Positions 14,056 to 20,786 of a DNA stretch of 64,000 nucleotides are shown piece by piece (positions within the stretch are counted from its first letter, which is position 1; every line of letters begins with the position of its first letter). This DNA comes from Planctomycetota bacterium. Its GTDB lineage: Bacteria > Planctomycetota > UBA1135 > GCA-002686595. Both the position numbers and the translations under genes were made by a program. The stretch spans positions 1 through 64,000 of the forward strand of contig DUCM01000006.1 of the NCBI GenBank assembly GCA_012959785.1, in the 5' to 3' direction. Under the pieces are notes generated by a model, which was given only the letters and a program-made list of their open reading frames with translations, did not search any database and was not told the origin of the DNA.

Positions 14056-15867
14056 TCAGCCCCCGACGCTCTTCGGCTCGGGCTCGGGCTCGGGCTGCTC
14101 CTCGTCTGCGCGATCCCGATTGGCACGCTCCTTTTCCATGGGATCGTCGGAGTAGTCGAGGACGGTCTCGACCCGTTCGCCAGCGCGCTCGAGGGAGATC
14201 TCCTTGCGCGGCCCCGCGAGTTGCAACTCGGCCACGATTTCACGTCGATTCGAGACCTCGACACCATCGATGGCCAGGATCAAGTCCCCCGCTTGCCAGC
14301 CTGCGCTTTCGGCCAGAGTGCCGGAGATCACGCGCTCCACGAGACGCCCATCGTCCTGGTCGAGATAGACGCCCATGCGCCGCGGCTCGGGCAGACGCAT
14401 GCGAGTGCGATCGACGGATTCGTCGAGGTTCGCAAACCCCCAGGCAGCCAGAGCGATCACTAGCGAACTGTGGCGTTGGTCGTCGGCGTCGACCTCGGCC
14501 AGGGTGTCGTGCTGGGTGTGGTGCAAGCGCCTGTAGCCCGCGCTCGACTGGTTCCAGTGAAAGGCCGGCACGCCTTTGGTGATGAAGGGTGAGTGGTCGC
14601 TGGGACCCGGGCCGAGACCTGGGCTCGTGCGAATCTCGAAGAGGCGCTCGGGGTCCAGAGTCAAGATCGAAGCAAAGACTTCCTCGAAGGCCGGCAGCAT
14701 GGCTTCGGTGGGCCGGAGGCCGCGCAGGAAGTTCGTGCCGTTGTCATGGTTGAGCACGATGCTGATGCGCTCGAGTTCGTCCTCATGACTGGAGACAAAA
14801 CCCCGCGAACCCAAGAGCCCCTGTTCCTCGCCGCTGTACAGAACAAAGCGCAGGGTGCGTCGCGGCGTGATTCCCAGGGAGGCCAGGAGACGCGCGGCTT
14901 CGAGGGTTGTCGCCACACCTGTGCCGTTGTCGCAGGCCCCCTGGGCTCCGTCCCAAGCGTCGATGTGCCCCTGCACGATGACAAACTCGTCGGAGAGCTC
15001 GGAACCGTGCAGGTCGGCCACGACATTGAACTGGGTGATGGGACCGTGCAGGAACTCCACCGCGATGTCGAACTCGAGTTCCACCTCCGAGCCGTCGACT
15101 TGGGCCTCCTCGAGGGCCCGAACCAACTCGATGTACTGGTCGTAGAGCAAAGTCGGCCGCACCAAGGTCGGCAGGTCGTCGTAGTCCACATCCCAATTGC
15201 CGCTCATCACGAGGCGACCGTCGCGGGTACCGGCTGCCACGATTCCCAGGGCGCCCTGTTCGCTGTAGTGGTCATGCAGAGCACTGCGCCCGCGGCCACG
15301 CAACTTGCGGTTGCGCACGATCCACTTGCCGCGCAACTCCTCGCCCAACTCCAGAGCCTCCTCGCGAGTAGCGGGCTCGAGCATGGCCGGGCCTCGCAGG
15401 GGGCCCTGTGTGCCCGGCGTCCAGGCCGGAGTGATAAAGGTCAGGGGCACCTCATCGGGGGCCAGCATGCGCCCCTTGAACGCGCCGCGGTCAAAGCCCA
15501 CGGGCACCTCGCCCCAGGCCTCAAGGCGCGCATCGAGGCCCATGTCCTCGAAGGTCTGGCGGGCCCAGTCCTGGGCCAGCTTGATGCCGGTCGAGCCCGT
15601 CAAGCGCCGGGGGAAGTGCCTGGTGATGACGCTAATGTACAGTTGCGACTTGCCGTTTGACTGGCTCTCGCGCACCAGGCTCTGGCCCTCGGCGGAGAGT
15701 CCCGGGGACAGGGACTCCGCGGCCTCTTTGGAAGCGTCTTGCCCGCTTGCTGGCGCTGCGGGTGCTGCGGCCTCAGGTTGCGAATCCTGCCGCGCGGCGA
15801 GGGGCGCCGCGGCGAGGGCCAAGGCCGTGAGGATCGCAAGGAAGCGCGCAAACTGAGGTATCTGCAT
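14056..15867 (-). CDS. Exported M28-family metallopeptidase with PDZ domain
   Basis: A 603-aa protein from ATG 15867, with a signal peptide ending AAPLAA. Residues of about 290-480 carry the di-zinc M28 aminopeptidase fold. Visible elements are GHIDAWDGAQGACDNGTG (His and Asp ligands), YSGEEQGLLGS (catalytic Glu and ligand Glu), LNHDNGT and HTQHDTL (final His ligand). A protease-associated-like region with the bulk of the N-terminal half precedes it. A PDZ domain follows (about 500-580: GDLILAIDGVEVSN), then a charged tail with EPEPEPE. M28/PDZ proteins are secreted exo- or carboxypeptidases, and the substrate is unknown. No close operon partner was seen. Confidence 0.9.
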   Translation of the reverse strand: MQIPQFARFLAILTALALAAAPLAARQDSQPEAAAPAAPASGQDASKEAAESLSPGLSAEGQSLVRESQSNGKSQLYISVITRHFPRRLTGSTGIKLAQDWARQTFEDMGLDARLEAWGEVPVGFDRGAFKGRMLAPDEVPLTFITPAWTPGTQGPLRGPAMLEPATREEALELGEELRGKWIVRNRKLRGRGRSALHDHYSEQGALGIVAAGTRDGRLVMSGNWDVDYDDLPTLVRPTLLYDQYIELVRALEEAQVDGSEVELEFDIAVEFLHGPITQFNVVADLHGSELSDEFVIVQGHIDAWDGAQGACDNGTGVATTLEAARLLASLGITPRRTLRFVLYSGEEQGLLGSRGFVSSHEDELERISIVLNHDNGTNFLRGLRPTEAMLPAFEEVFASILTLDPERLFEIRTSPGLGPGPSDHSPFITKGVPAFHWNQSSAGYRRLHHTQHDTLAEVDADDQRHSSLVIALAAWGFANLDESVDRTRMRLPEPRRMGVYLDQDDGRLVERVISGTLAESAGWQAGDLILAIDGVEVSNRREIVAELQLAGPRKEISLERAGERVETVLDYSDDPMEKERANRDRADEEQPEPEPEPKSVGG

Positions 15868-16047
15868 CGGGGAGGGGGCAGGCAAAACAAGCAGGGAGGG
15901 AAGATACGAAGGTTAGCAGATCGCCGCCAGCTGCTCGATCAAAACGGCACAACCCGCAGCCCTCTCTTACAGCAGTTCCACACGCCGTGTGAGCTTTCCT
16001 TGCAACGAGGCCCATGGGCCCCGAAACTCCCCGGCGGCACTTTCCTT

Positions 16048-16755
16048 ATGGCGATGACCCCACCAACGATGCCTGCCTCCAACGACTGCCCCACCCTGCT
16101 GCTCGTTCCCACCGAACTCGAACTGCGCCGCCTCGAGGACCAGGGCGGTTTCACGCGTGGGCCGGCCCGGGTTTGCCTGTGTGGCTTTGGCCCGATCGCC
16201 GCCGCGGCGCGCACGGCCCAGTTGTGTGCCGAGTGGCAACCCGAGCGCGTGCTCCTGGTGGGAATTGCGGGCACCTTCGACAGCTCTCGAGCCGCCCTTG
16301 AGAGCGCCCACGAATTCGGCACCGTGGCCTTGACCGGGGTGGGCGCCGGCGAGGGCATGCACTTTCAGGGACCGCCGGCCCTGGGTTTTGCTCAGTGGCC
16401 CGGCTCGCCCTCGACCACCCCCCATCCCGTGGTGGAGAGCCTCACTCTCGCCGCCCCGGAGAAGATCGGCCTCTTGCTCACGAGTTGTGCGGCCACGGCC
16501 AACGAGGCCGTGTTGGCCAGGCGCCGGGCAGCCTTCGACGGCGATTCCAAACAGGGGCCTTTTTGCGAGGACATGGAAGGCTTCGGCGTGGCCCTCGCCT
16601 GCGCCCTCGCCTGCGTTCCTCTGCGCATCGTGCGCGGCGTCTCGAACGAAGTTGGCGACCGCGACCCGGCTCACTGGCGCATTCCGGCGGCCCTCGACGC
16701 GGCTCGCTGCCTGGCCAATACCCTCATTGAACAGGACTGGCGGGACGGATCGTGA
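16048..16755 (+). CDS. mqnB: Futalosine hydrolase (MqnB)
   Basis: A 235-aa nucleosidase that removes the base from futalosine in the futalosine pathway to menaquinone. It has the purine-nucleoside-phosphorylase/MTAN fold: LLVGIAGTFD near residue 70 and the ribose-binding EDMEGFGVALA segment near residue 170, followed by RIVRGVSNEVGDRD. Three in-frame ATGs (16048, 16054, 16069) are possible starts and none has a clear ribosome site. The frame is open farther upstream, but that part does not resemble the family. The gene overlaps mqnD by GTGA, and the partner clinches the assignment over a methylthioadenosine nucleosidase. Confidence 0.9.
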   Translation: MAMTPPTMPASNDCPTLLLVPTELELRRLEDQGGFTRGPARVCLCGFGPIAAAARTAQLCAEWQPERVLLVGIAGTFDSSRAALESAHEFGTVALTGVGAGEGMHFQGPPALGFAQWPGSPSTTPHPVVESLTLAAPEKIGLLLTSCAATANEAVLARRRAAFDGDSKQGPFCEDMEGFGVALACALACVPLRIVRGVSNEVGDRDPAHWRIPAALDAARCLANTLIEQDWRDGS

Positions 16756-17615
16756 GTGCGCGGCTGCAACTGGGCATCTCGACCTGCCCCAACGATACCT
16801 TTGCCTTCCACGGGCTCCTGACTGGAAAGGTGCGAGCGCGGGGCATCGAGCTCGAGATCCGGCTGGCCGATGTGCAGGAACTCAACGAGAGCCTGGCGCG
16901 CGGTGAATACGACGCGGCCAAGGCGAGCTTCCTCGCGGCGCTGCAATTGGGCCACGAGGTGTACCTCCTGCGCAGCGGTGCAGCCCTCGGTTTTTCAGCG
17001 GGACCCCTGCTCCTCGCTCGCGAGGCGCGCGCCGACTTGAAGGCTGCGAGGGTCCTGGGACCCGGCGCTCAAACCACCGCCGCCCTGCTCTACGCGCTCT
17101 ACCACGGTGACGATCCCGAGCCCGAGCATGTGATCTTCTCCGAGATCATGCCGGCTTTGGAGGAGCGCCGGGCCGATGTGGGTCTGTGCATTCACGAAGG
17201 GCGCTTCACCCACGCCGAGCGCGGGCTCGTGTGCCTCGAAGACCTCGGCCAGACGTGGGAAGCCGACACCGGCGCGCCACTACCCCTGGGCGGCATTTTT
17301 GGCCGCAAGCGCCTGGGCAGCGAGGTCCTGCTCGCCTTGGAGGATGCCATCTTGGAGTCCATTGACTACGCCCACGCCCACCCCGAAGAGGCCCTCGTCA
17401 CCATGCGCCGCCACGCCACCGAGCTCTCCGACGAGGTCCTCATGGGCCATGTCGAGCTGTATGTGAACGACGACACCCGGCGCCTCGGGCTCCGCGCGCA
17501 AGCCGCCTGTCGCACCCTGGAACAGCGCGCCCGAGCCGCGGGACTCGTGGCCCCGGGCTCAAGGTCCCTGGAGATCTTTGGCCTGGAGGGCTCCGCAGCG
17601 GGCAACGGCAATTGA
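16752..17615 (+). CDS. mqnD: 1,4-dihydroxy-6-naphthoate synthase (MqnD)
   Basis: A 287-aa enzyme that converts cyclic dehypoxanthinyl futalosine to 1,4-dihydroxy-6-naphthoate, a menaquinone precursor. It is diagnosed by the N-terminal STCPNDTFAFHGL motif, the KASFLAAL segment, GPGAQTTAALL, the LCIHEGRFTH region with its conserved His, and PLPLGGIFGRK. The length is normal for the family. Start is GTG 16752, overlapping the mqnB stop (GTGA), so translation is coupled. MqnA, MqnC and MqnE are not in this window. A periplasmic-binding-protein-like fold is expected and the enzyme is cytoplasmic. Confidence 0.95.
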   Translation: MSARLQLGISTCPNDTFAFHGLLTGKVRARGIELEIRLADVQELNESLARGEYDAAKASFLAALQLGHEVYLLRSGAALGFSAGPLLLAREARADLKAARVLGPGAQTTAALLYALYHGDDPEPEHVIFSEIMPALEERRADVGLCIHEGRFTHAERGLVCLEDLGQTWEADTGAPLPLGGIFGRKRLGSEVLLALEDAILESIDYAHAHPEEALVTMRRHATELSDEVLMGHVELYVNDDTRRLGLRAQAACRTLEQRARAAGLVAPGSRSLEIFGLEGSAAGNGN

Positions 17616-18147: not shown

Positions 18148-18642
18148 TTATTTTTTCGCCTTCGGTTGAGCCTTTCCCATGTCGAGCACTTGGGCCCATT
18201 CCGTGGAGGTCACGGGTTGGATGGAGAGCCTCTGGCCCCGCTGAACCACCGCCATGGAGGCCAGAGCAGGAGCTTGCTTGAGGTCTTCGAGGCTGACGAA
18301 GTTCGCCAGGGCGCGCCTGGCACCCAGGTCGAACATGAGCCAGCGGGGCGCTGCGGGATCGCTCTTGGCATCGTAGTGCCCGTCCTCGGGGTCGAACTGA
18401 GTCGGATCGGGGTAGGCCTCGCGCAGCACCTCGGCCAGCCCCACGATGCCCGCTGGCTTGGCGTTCGAGTGGTAGAAGAGGATCTGGTCTCCGCGCTTGA
18501 TGTCATCGCGGATGAAGTTGCGCGCCTGGTAATTGCGGATGCCGTCCCAGTGGGTGCGACGGCCAGGGCACGCGCACAGGTCATCCCACGAGAAGGCTCC
18601 GGGTTCGGACTTGACGAGCCAATAGTGGGGTTGCTTGGACAT
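18148..18642 (-). CDS. EVE domain protein
   Basis: A 164-aa protein consisting essentially of one EVE domain: YWLVKSEP at the N-terminus, WDGIRNYQARNFIRDD, GDQILFYHSNA, GIVGLAEV and a YDAKSDPAAPRWLMFDL segment. EVE proteins have a PUA-like fold related to YTH domains and are thought to bind modified bases in DNA or RNA. The length is typical (about 150-160 aa). Start ATG 18642. The C-terminus is Lys-rich. It is probably a single gene or is co-transcribed with the upstream acetyltransferases, whose last stop is at 18700, 57 bases before its start. Confidence 0.92.
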   Translation of the reverse strand: MSKQPHYWLVKSEPGAFSWDDLCACPGRRTHWDGIRNYQARNFIRDDIKRGDQILFYHSNAKPAGIVGLAEVLREAYPDPTQFDPEDGHYDAKSDPAAPRWLMFDLGARRALANFVSLEDLKQAPALASMAVVQRGQRLSIQPVTSTEWAQVLDMGKAQPKAKK

Positions 18643-18699: not shown

Positions 18700-19674
18700 T
18701 CAGGCCAAGTCGGAGTCCGCCAGGGTAGTCCACCACCGCTGACGCAACCAGGCGAGATCGAACCTTTTGTCGAAGCTGCGCGCCACGCAGCGATAGGGGC
18801 TGGGCTGCACGCGCCAACCGCAGGCCTGGAAACGGGCGAAGGCGTCGCTCCAGCAAGGTACGAGGATCACCAGGCGCTCGGCACCCTGCTCCCGGGCGTG
18901 GGCACAGGCTGCGGCCTCGAGGGCGCTGAAGACCTCGGGCTCTGTATCGGGCACCAGCCAATCGCAGACCGCCGCTGCTCCGGGCCAGGCCCAGGCCCCC
19001 TCGCGCATGACGCACATGCCGCGCAAGTGACCGTCATCATCTCTCAGGCCGAGGGGAGTGTAGATGTTGGTGGGATGGTCGAGGAAGCGCCAGCGCGCCC
19101 AAGCCGCATCGCGCACGGCAGCGGCGCCAAAGCTCGTGGCGCAGCGATCCCAGAGCCACTTGAGGTCGGGGCCAAACTCCTCCAGGCGCTCGACTCCAGG
19201 CGGCCTCGAAACGCTCGCCCCCACCTCGCGCACAAGCACCAACTCCTCGCGCAGGAGCCGGTACTCCAGGAAACGCTCGCCGATGCGCCAGGCCTTTTCC
19301 AGGGGCCAGCCGTAATGCACGAGATCCTCGCCGCGCACTCCGTATTCGTCAAAATAGGCCCGGGCCAGGTTGACGAAGAGCCCGGGGCGCTTGAGCCCGG
19401 CGCGGTATTCGGGGTCGATCATGGAATCCACCGACTGCACCATGGCGCGCAACTCGCCGCCGATCCAGGTGGCCTGGGCCCGGCCCAGGTAGGCCCCCAC
19501 GATGCGCCCGTCGGCCTGGGCCACAAAGGCCCGCGGCCCCGCCGGCACGGCGCAGGTCCCCCAGGCGAGGGTCTCCTCGGCATGGGCTTCGGCCGCCCCG
19601 AAGACGCGTTCGTGGCAGCGCGCCAGGGCGGGCAAGTCCTCCTGAACGAGGGGCCGGATTTCGATGGAAGTCAT
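18700..19674 (-). CDS. GNAT-type acetyltransferase-like protein (second of pair)
   Basis: A 324-aa protein, N-terminus IEIRPLVQEDLPAL followed by HERVFGA as in GNAT folds. It is about twice the length of a simple GNAT enzyme, and the two halves suggest a double GNAT domain. It shares with its upstream neighbour the segments RDAAWARWRF/RDAAYLTWRY, CDWL and the terminal (T/Y)TL(A/G)DSDL motif, so the two genes are paralogues. Its ATG overlaps the neighbour's stop (ATGA), giving a coupled pair. Substrate unknown. Proteins ending in this motif often sit near polysaccharide genes, but none is adjacent here. Confidence 0.75.
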   Translation of the reverse strand: MTSIEIRPLVQEDLPALARCHERVFGAAEAHAEETLAWGTCAVPAGPRAFVAQADGRIVGAYLGRAQATWIGGELRAMVQSVDSMIDPEYRAGLKRPGLFVNLARAYFDEYGVRGEDLVHYGWPLEKAWRIGERFLEYRLLREELVLVREVGASVSRPPGVERLEEFGPDLKWLWDRCATSFGAAAVRDAAWARWRFLDHPTNIYTPLGLRDDDGHLRGMCVMREGAWAWPGAAAVCDWLVPDTEPEVFSALEAAACAHAREQGAERLVILVPCWSDAFARFQACGWRVQPSPYRCVARSFDKRFDLAWLRQRWWTTLADSDLA

Positions 19675-20636
19675 ACGAGGTCGCTGTCACCCAGGGTGTA
19701 GTACCAGCGCCTCGACCAAAAGGCATGCTCGAAGTTGGAATCGTAGGAGCGACCCACCATGAGCAGTCCCGTGGGCCGCACTCGCATTCCCAGGGTCTGC
19801 AAGCCCACAAAGTCAGGGCACCAGGGCGCCAGCACCAACACGATCGGCAAGTCCCGCGCCGCGGCCCTGGCGGCGCGCATGAGCCCGGTCCAGGCCTCCT
19901 GGCGAGCCAGCCAGTCGCACAGGATGAAGGACTCGACACCCTCGAAGAGAGCGCGTCGCCCCACGCAATAGCCCGACAATTCGCCGGCGCGATCGCGGGC
20001 TGCGAAAATGTGGTAATCCGCTTCGGGATGCTCGCAGTAACGCCAGGTGAGATAGGCCGCATCGCGCACACCCAGGGCCCCCAGACCCTCGGCATAGGCC
20101 TCACTGAAGGCCGTGAACTCGGGGCCGACTTCCCGGAGCTCCTGGACTTCCTGGGCGTCATCGCTCACCTCAACAGGGCCTTCCAGCTGAAGCGCCACCT
20201 GCGCACGCAGCGTCCTGTAGCCGAGCGAACGCTCGCCGATGCGCTGGGCCGTGGCCACGGGAAAGCCCCACATCCAACGATCGCTGTCTGCGTCGCTGCC
20301 GCCAAAGTCGCGGGCGAACTCGATGCCCGTGCGCACAAAGAGCCCGGCCTTGGCGAGCCCACGCTCGCGGCTTTGGATGAATGAATCGGCGCAGTGCGAG
20401 GTGCGCAGGCGTTCGCCACCCGCGAGCACGAAGCGCGACTGTCCGGCGTAGTGAGCCAGAACCCTGCCCTCATCATCGAGAGCCAACTTGATGCGCGCCC
20501 CCCCTGGGTTTTGAAGGTACTGCCAACGCCAGAGGGCCAGGCTGCGCGGCGCGAGACCCGCGTTCACTTCCCCAAAGGCAGCGTTGTGAGCCGCCAGGAT
20601 GGCCCTTTCGTCCCCGGGCCTGTAGTCACGAATCAT
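19671..20636 (-). CDS. GNAT-type acetyltransferase-like protein (first of pair)
   Basis: A 321-aa protein from ATG 20636. The open frame extends to 20717 and would run into the tRNA-Sec gene, so the internal start beginning MIRDYRPGDERAIL is chosen. It has a GNAT-like N-terminal helix-strand, a GRVLAHYAGQSRFV strand pair, a central TWRYCEHPEADY segment, ILCDWLARQEAW and the terminal YYTLGDSDLV. It is paralogous to the next gene and overlaps it by four bases. It starts 52 bases downstream of the tRNA-Sec 3' end on the same strand, so co-transcription with selC is possible. Confidence 0.75.
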   Translation of the reverse strand: MIRDYRPGDERAILAAHNAAFGEVNAGLAPRSLALWRWQYLQNPGGARIKLALDDEGRVLAHYAGQSRFVLAGGERLRTSHCADSFIQSRERGLAKAGLFVRTGIEFARDFGGSDADSDRWMWGFPVATAQRIGERSLGYRTLRAQVALQLEGPVEVSDDAQEVQELREVGPEFTAFSEAYAEGLGALGVRDAAYLTWRYCEHPEADYHIFAARDRAGELSGYCVGRRALFEGVESFILCDWLARQEAWTGLMRAARAAARDLPIVLVLAPWCPDFVGLQTLGMRVRPTGLLMVGRSYDSNFEHAFWSRRWYYTLGDSDLV

Positions 20637-20688: not shown

Positions 20689-20786
20689 TGGCGGGAGTGC
20701 ATGGGAATCGAACCCACCGGCCCCGCTGTTCACGGAGCCCAACCGGCTTTGAAGACCGGGCCGCACACCAGCACGGATCCACTCCC
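20689..20786 (-). tRNA. selC: Selenocysteine tRNA, anticodon TCA
   Basis: A 98-nt cloverleaf on the minus strand, with encoded CCA at 20691-20689. It has all the hallmarks of bacterial tRNA-Sec: a 6-bp D stem (CCGTGC / GTGCGG) closing a 4-base TGGT loop, a 5-bp anticodon stem with loop CTTCAAA (anticodon TCA), a long variable arm (7-bp GGCTCCG / CGGGGCC), a T loop TTCGATT and a G discriminator. The acceptor has seven canonical pairs (GGGAGTG / CACTCCC). The eighth position, paired in most bacterial tRNA-Sec, is G opposite G. It reads UGA as selenocysteine, so the genome should also encode SelA, SelB and at least one selenoprotein. Confidence 0.93.

Follow-up and report, generated by a model that had tools for sequence, protein, structure and literature searches.

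The window analysed here, a stretch of 64,000 nucleotides at the beginning of contig DUCM01000006.1 from a Planctomycetota bacterium, carries a selenocysteine tRNA gene in which G stands opposite G at the eighth acceptor position. The question raised by this locus is whether SelA and SelB tolerate such a tRNA or whether the RNA folds in a different way, the two options left by an earlier note on this DNA. ARAGORN identified the gene as tRNA-Sec(tca), the sole tRNA of the window, and the Rfam model of tRNA-Sec, RF01852, matched it over its full length with 72.7 bits (E 5.7e-13), well above the gathering cut-off of 47 bits. RF01852 was the single Rfam family above cut-off in the window, and in the whole genome this gene was the one tRNA-Sec above cut-off. 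The earlier note had recognized the tRNA by its hallmarks and proposed a covariance model run, and the two programs agreed with its assignment. From the 5′-end, the RNA consists of GGGAGUG, G7a, the AU linker, a 6-bp D stem with UGGU loop and a 5-bp anticodon stem with CUUCAAA, followed by an 8-bp variable arm, GUGGG-UUCGAUU-CCCAU, G66a, CACUCCC, G73, and CCA (Table 1). The hallmarks of bacterial tRNA-Sec, that is, the UCA anticodon, G73, the long variable arm, and the 6-bp D stem with a small loop, are all present. The acceptor has seven Watson–Crick pairs, then G7a·G66a at layer 8, just as the earlier note had read from the letters; under the strict 8/5 definition eight canonical acceptor pairs are expected, and the eighth is G·G here. 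The T stem (GUGGG/CCCAU) is closed by G49·U65. The same note had pointed to this wobble as a peculiarity; it is indeed there, but it is not unusual, since E. coli selC shares G49·U65. The minimum free energy fold (−49.1 kcal/mol) reproduces this cloverleaf and leaves the G·G unpaired, and the 8 nt from the T stem to G73 mean that the 13-layer acceptor/T branch is retained.

Table 1. Positions of the tRNA-Sec gene, its structural elements, and the adjoining GNAT-like genes in the window
Feature	Position	Strand	Evidence
tRNA-Sec gene (selC), anticodon UCA, CCA encoded	20689..20786	−	ARAGORN; Rfam RF01852, 72.7 bits
Acceptor 5′ strand, positions 1–7 (GGGAGUG)	20780..20786	−	Sequence, pairing
G7a, 5′ half of the G·G (acceptor layer 8)	20779	−	Sequence; NC mark in Rfam alignment
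Linker AU, positions 8–9	20777..20778	−	ARAGORN structure
D arm, 6-bp stem and 4-nt UGGU loop	20761..20776	−	ARAGORN structure
Anticodon arm, anticodon UCA at 20750–20752	20743..20759	−	ARAGORN
Long variable arm, 8-bp stem	20719..20739	−	ARAGORN structure
T arm (GUGGG/CCCAU), closing pair G49·U65 at 20717/20701	20701..20717	−	ARAGORN structure
G66a, 3′ half of the G·G mismatch	20700	−	Sequence; Rfam alignment; relatives
Acceptor 3′ strand, positions 66–72 (CACUCCC)	20693..20699	−	ARAGORN structure
Discriminator G73 and encoded CCA	20689..20692	−	Sequence
GNAT-like gene 1, 52 nt downstream of tRNA-Sec	19671..20636	−	Position, AlphaFold, Foldseek
GNAT-like gene 2, in tandem	18700..19674	−	Pfam Acetyltransf_9 match just under cut-off

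Compared with the known types of tRNA-Sec, the window tRNA is closest in layout to the 8/5-type E. coli selC, the sequence of which (T stem GCAGG/CCTGT) occurs in 5374 of the 5426 complete genomes of this species. They have in common the UCA anticodon, G73, the 6-bp D stem with a 4-nt loop, the long variable arm, 8 nt from the T stem to G73, a 5-bp T stem closed by G·U, and the presence of selA, selB, and selD in the genome, while they differ at layer 8 (G·G in the window, C-G in E. coli) and layer 10 (U-A vs. C-G). Reviews and surveys describe bacterial tRNA-Sec as 8/5, with 12-bp exceptions (PMC7609411; PMC5330540). The 7/5 tRNA-Sec of the Cloacimonetes type, which has a 12-bp AT stem and 7 residues from the T stem to G73 (PMC5330540, Santesmasses et al., 2017), also possesses seven canonical acceptor pairs, but the window tRNA has 8 residues instead of 7 in this interval and therefore differs in helix length. 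In epsilonproteobacterial tRNA-Sec, composed of 12 bp and a bulged nucleotide (PMC5330540), one acceptor/T layer is likewise not a normal pair, whereas layer 8 of the window tRNA has a base on both strands. The selC* tRNA-Cys and the allo-tRNAs have a tRNA-Sec-like shape with a 12-bp acceptor branch and identity elements of their own, and selC* tRNA-Cys also has U73 (PMC7609411), in contrast to the 13-layer branch, UCA, and G73 of the window tRNA. The reviews and surveys of tRNA-Sec consulted here do not describe a branch of 13 layers in which layer 8 is purine·purine.

The earlier note had predicted that the organism has selenoproteins, none of them encoded in the window, and had suggested a search for selA, selB, and selD. 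All three were found by profile search of the genome, each over its curated cut-off: selA at C21:341866-343233 (476.7 bits), selB on the minus strand at C20:3560-5452 (321.7 bits), and selD at C21:344791-345738 (316.6 bits), a match inside the stretch C21:344770-345837 (L051:8771-9838) and 1.5 kb downstream of selA. Three separate contigs carry the tRNA-Sec gene, selB, and the selA/selD pair, respectively. The nearest solved relatives by sequence were 3u0o for SelD, 3w1h for SelA, and 5lzb for SelB. The selD frame contains one in-frame TGA (C21:344821), which aligns to the Cys of the AGC motif in 3u0o and 2yye, that is, to the catalytic site. Downstream of this UGA, CGCGCAA-GUU-UUGCGCG forms a 7-bp hairpin with G as the first loop base at a spacing of approximately 33 nt, which falls within the limits given for bacterial SECIS elements (loop of 3–9 nt, 4–16 bp, G in the first two loop positions, 16–37 nt; PMC13188914). 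Since, over 45 kb of the genome, approximately 4% of the TGA triplets are accompanied by an equally stable hairpin, this SECIS-like element counts as support rather than proof. By gene content, the Sec system looks complete, and selD, with its in-frame UGA and the hairpin, provides at least one selenoprotein candidate outside the window, as predicted. Within the window, a crude GC3 scan, which is a weak test, detected no UGA-bridged reading frame, in agreement with the other half of the prediction.

The tRNA-Sec gene is followed by two tandem GNAT-like genes, the products of which are 34% identical and are the only clear members of their family in the genome. No terminator-like site was found between the tRNA-Sec gene and this pair. 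For the product of the first gene, AlphaFold predicted a confident two-domain fold (pLDDT 94.7), and the nearest folds found by Foldseek were Eis-type acetyltransferases and N-myristoyltransferases at 7–16% identity. In 36 of the 55 loci of the same bacterial family that had enough flanking sequence, a GNAT-like homologue on the strand of tRNA-Sec started 11–169 nt beyond it, while approximately 150 tRNA-Sec loci outside the family had none within 400 nt; judged from these loci, the arrangement is family-specific. Our literature search found no paper linking a GNAT gene to selC. The esterase-like gene upstream of tRNA-Sec had no match in the loci of the relatives. As to the other neighbours, an EVE-domain protein (Pfam EVE, E 7e-53) is encoded at 18148-18642 after the GNAT-like pair on the same, minus strand, and on the plus strand a PNP_UDP_1 phosphorylase-superfamily ORF adjoins a VitK2_biosynth (menaquinone biosynthesis) gene (15739-17615), which looks like the futalosine route.

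The distribution of the mismatch was followed in the relatives of the host. tRNA-Sec was present in 95 of the 101 genomes searched, and layer 8 was G·G in 55 of the 56 parsed tRNA-Sec of the same family (one further locus, L118, ends before layer 8 and was left out of this count). Pair 6:67 varied with compensation between U-A and C-G in these tRNAs (GGGAGUG/CACUCCC in 38, GGGAGCG/CGCUCCC in 17), while the G·G was constant. The single exception, U·C, came from a second, divergent tRNA-Sec copy of genome G044. This copy (L116, G044:C3:17984-18079) is nearly identical to L328 (G359:C9); in both, layer 8 is U·C and the gene ends in GUUU without encoding CCA, and such near-identity across genomes of two families points to transfer or contamination. 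G·G was also found among the members of all six other sampled families of the order, where it was the most frequent state besides C-G in nine tRNAs of f6, G-C in two of f7, and G·A in one of f5 (the ARAGORN register was off by one in a few f7 tRNAs, and G066 and G086 proved to be G-C after direct parsing). A phylum-wide Rfam search revealed tRNA-Sec in 185 of 294 Planctomycetota genomes; among the distinct tRNA-Sec sampled, 127 of 182 had G·G and 139 of 182 a purine·purine layer 8. Outside the order, G·G occurred in 31 and a purine·purine layer 8 in 36 of the 55 sampled families. One Planctomycetota locus, L302 (G238:C23), encodes a tRNA-Sec of the 7/5 type with 7 nt from the T stem to G73. 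The 24-contig state of the source assembly leaves room for a sequencing error, a pseudogene, or contamination, but this explanation is refuted by dozens of independent assemblies sharing the mismatch, including the complete chromosomes of Pla163 (CP036290), the strain of Rohdeia mirabilis, a species that NCBI assigns to Planctomycetota, Pla86 (CP036296), and Poly30 (CP036434). G·G is the usual state in the host lineage, neither an error nor a private change, and the window tRNA is an ordinary member of tRNA-Sec, typical for its own lineage.

Whether the RNA folds differently was judged from pair counts and energies. In a set of 201 distinct tRNAs, nearly all from Planctomycetota and including pattern-selected ones, layer 8 was standard in 38, and every other acceptor/T pair was standard in at least 198. 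Pair 49:65 was standard in all 201 with three pair types, thus the T stem stays 5 bp long. A slipped 8/4 acceptor, in which pairing of G7a with U65 would bulge out G66a and shorten the T stem to 4 bp as in some minor tRNA-Sec, appears highly improbable: 7a:65 could be standard in 177 of the 201 tRNAs, and 8/4 tRNA-Sec-like forms with a bulge have been described (PMC7609411), but 49:65 fits the same set better, the slipped fold is 5.5 kcal/mol worse with a pair probability of 0.0, and slipping is impossible for the C·A, A·A, and U·C types of layer 8. The 9/4 fold of archaea and eukaryotes, where an A8-U65 pair would enclose the G·G in a 9-layer acceptor and leave a 4-bp T stem, is a somewhat better candidate, still we consider it unlikely. 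A8-U65 can form in the window tRNA (pair probability of 0.31 vs. 0.58 for 49-65), the energy gap is merely 1.5 kcal/mol, and the Rfam model itself aligns the tRNA in this way; on the other hand, 8:65 is standard in 162 of 201 tRNAs compared with 201 of 201 for 49:65, and the A49-U65 and G49-C65 variants back the latter pair. On balance, tolerance by SelA and SelB is the better supported of the two options in the earlier note, ahead of a different fold.

The G·G-type DNA pattern matched at least 118 stretches, mostly from Planctomycetota, along with several from Gemmatimonadota and two Deltaproteobacteria records. Three other phyla were sampled through the best 30 loci by score and 5–10 others each, a non-random choice that makes the following fractions rough: in the phylum of G376 (a Gemmatimonadaceae record), a purine·purine layer 8 was seen in 21 of 27 distinct tRNA-Sec, all of them G·A; for the phylum of G380, whose record bears the title Tepidibacillus, the count was 30 of 33, with G·A prevailing; and for that of G375 (a Deltaproteobacteria record) it was 18 of 40, with G·G prevailing. 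Thus, the claim that the window tRNA departs from most bacterial tRNA-Sec was not supported, as a layer 8 without a Watson–Crick pair predominates, or nearly so, in the sampled phyla. In the pooled sets, layer 8 lacked a standard pair in 213 of 282 distinct tRNA-Sec, so eight canonical pairs are a poor defining feature; the standard pair in the other 69 indicates that the mismatch is not required. Each of the remaining 12 acceptor/T pairs was broken in 0–3 of the 282, and the 8 nt from the T stem to G73 were found in all sampled tRNAs but one, thus helix length is kept. The uniformity of layer 8 owes much to shared ancestry. Less probably, though with a fair chance, the constraint is relaxed: layer 8 would drift freely in lineages whose SelB or EF-Tu ignores it, and the mismatch would be put up with by the tRNA rather than be of use to it. 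The occurrence of standard and mismatched forms side by side in single families (f17, f27, f35, f39, and f47) speaks for such drift, but 208 of the 213 mismatches are purine·purine, a bias that free drift would not readily produce, G7a is held in 221 of the 282 tRNA-Sec, and base 65 covaries with 66a, with both resulting forms in several phyla (phylogeny being ignored in this comparison).

The covariation was evident from the counts in the mismatched tRNAs: U65 was accompanied by G66a in 145 and C65 by A66a in 54, while the crossed combinations U65-A66a and C65-G66a occurred in 4 and 7, respectively. Consequently, tRNAs with G·G typically close the T stem by G49·U65, and those with G·A by G49-C65 (Fisher 2.5e-37, a value that ignores shared ancestry and is no measure of independent events). 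Planctomycetota and the phylum of G380 each contain both forms, and so does Gemmatimonadota once its named G·G records are included. A stricter rule, that layers 8 and 9 are never both Watson–Crick, was rejected, since they are in 9 of 282 tRNAs; this amounts to a mild depletion (Fisher p 0.01, again ignoring shared ancestry). The scarcity of doubly Watson–Crick layers 8 and 9 is a weaker trend that would fit a helix defect being kept, without proving it. As a tentative proposal, for which we would not claim even odds, layers 8 and 9 might constitute one functional element with a local helix defect, kept so that SelB binds and EF-Tu rejects the tRNA. Its interchangeable forms might be Watson–Crick plus G·U in E. 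coli, G·G plus G·U in the window tRNA, and G·A plus G-C in the samples of Gemmatimonadota and the phylum of G380. If this is true, the requirement for eight acceptor pairs would describe a special case centred on E. coli.

Considering these results, we concluded, with a probability of roughly 80%, that the gene is a functional selC of this Planctomycetota bacterium, the product of which keeps the 13-layer length of the acceptor/T branch and has a purine·purine mismatch at layer 8. The long acceptor branch underlies the recognition of bacterial tRNA-Sec (PMC7609411), and SelA and SelB probably need the helix length, together with the D and variable arms, and not a Watson–Crick layer 8. G7a·G66a would stack as a non-canonical layer between the seven Watson–Crick acceptor pairs and the T stem closed by G49·U65; with all 13 layers presumably stacked, SelA and SelB would read the length of the helix, for which a Watson–Crick layer 8 would be dispensable. 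The window tRNA-Sec is presumably charged and used. In E. coli tRNA-Sec, C7-G66, G49·U65, and C50-G64 are the SelB identity elements that reject EF-Tu (PMC9976931), and C7-G66 corresponds to layer 8. The mismatch and the G·U wobble would then create a soft spot at the very layers reported to discriminate SelB from EF-Tu, and a part of layer 8 in EF-Tu rejection is plausible, because it is one of the three reported SelB elements.

Reviews and detection models, which describe bacterial tRNA-Sec as 8+5 pairs, count layer 8 among the features recognized by SelB and shunned by EF-Tu. Complementation of E. coli selC was reportedly achieved many years ago with tRNA-Sec genes from a clostridial bacterium and from a desulfo-bacterium; if these tRNAs carry such a layer 8, its tolerance has already been demonstrated. 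The textbook rule of eight acceptor pairs in bacterial tRNA-Sec is too strict, a point of relevance to covariance models and to anyone designing orthogonal tRNA-Sec. A layer 8 unpaired by the usual rules in a branch of kept length, as in most sampled tRNA-Sec of several phyla, separates length from pairing as the recognized feature, and these tRNA-Sec may serve as natural test variants.
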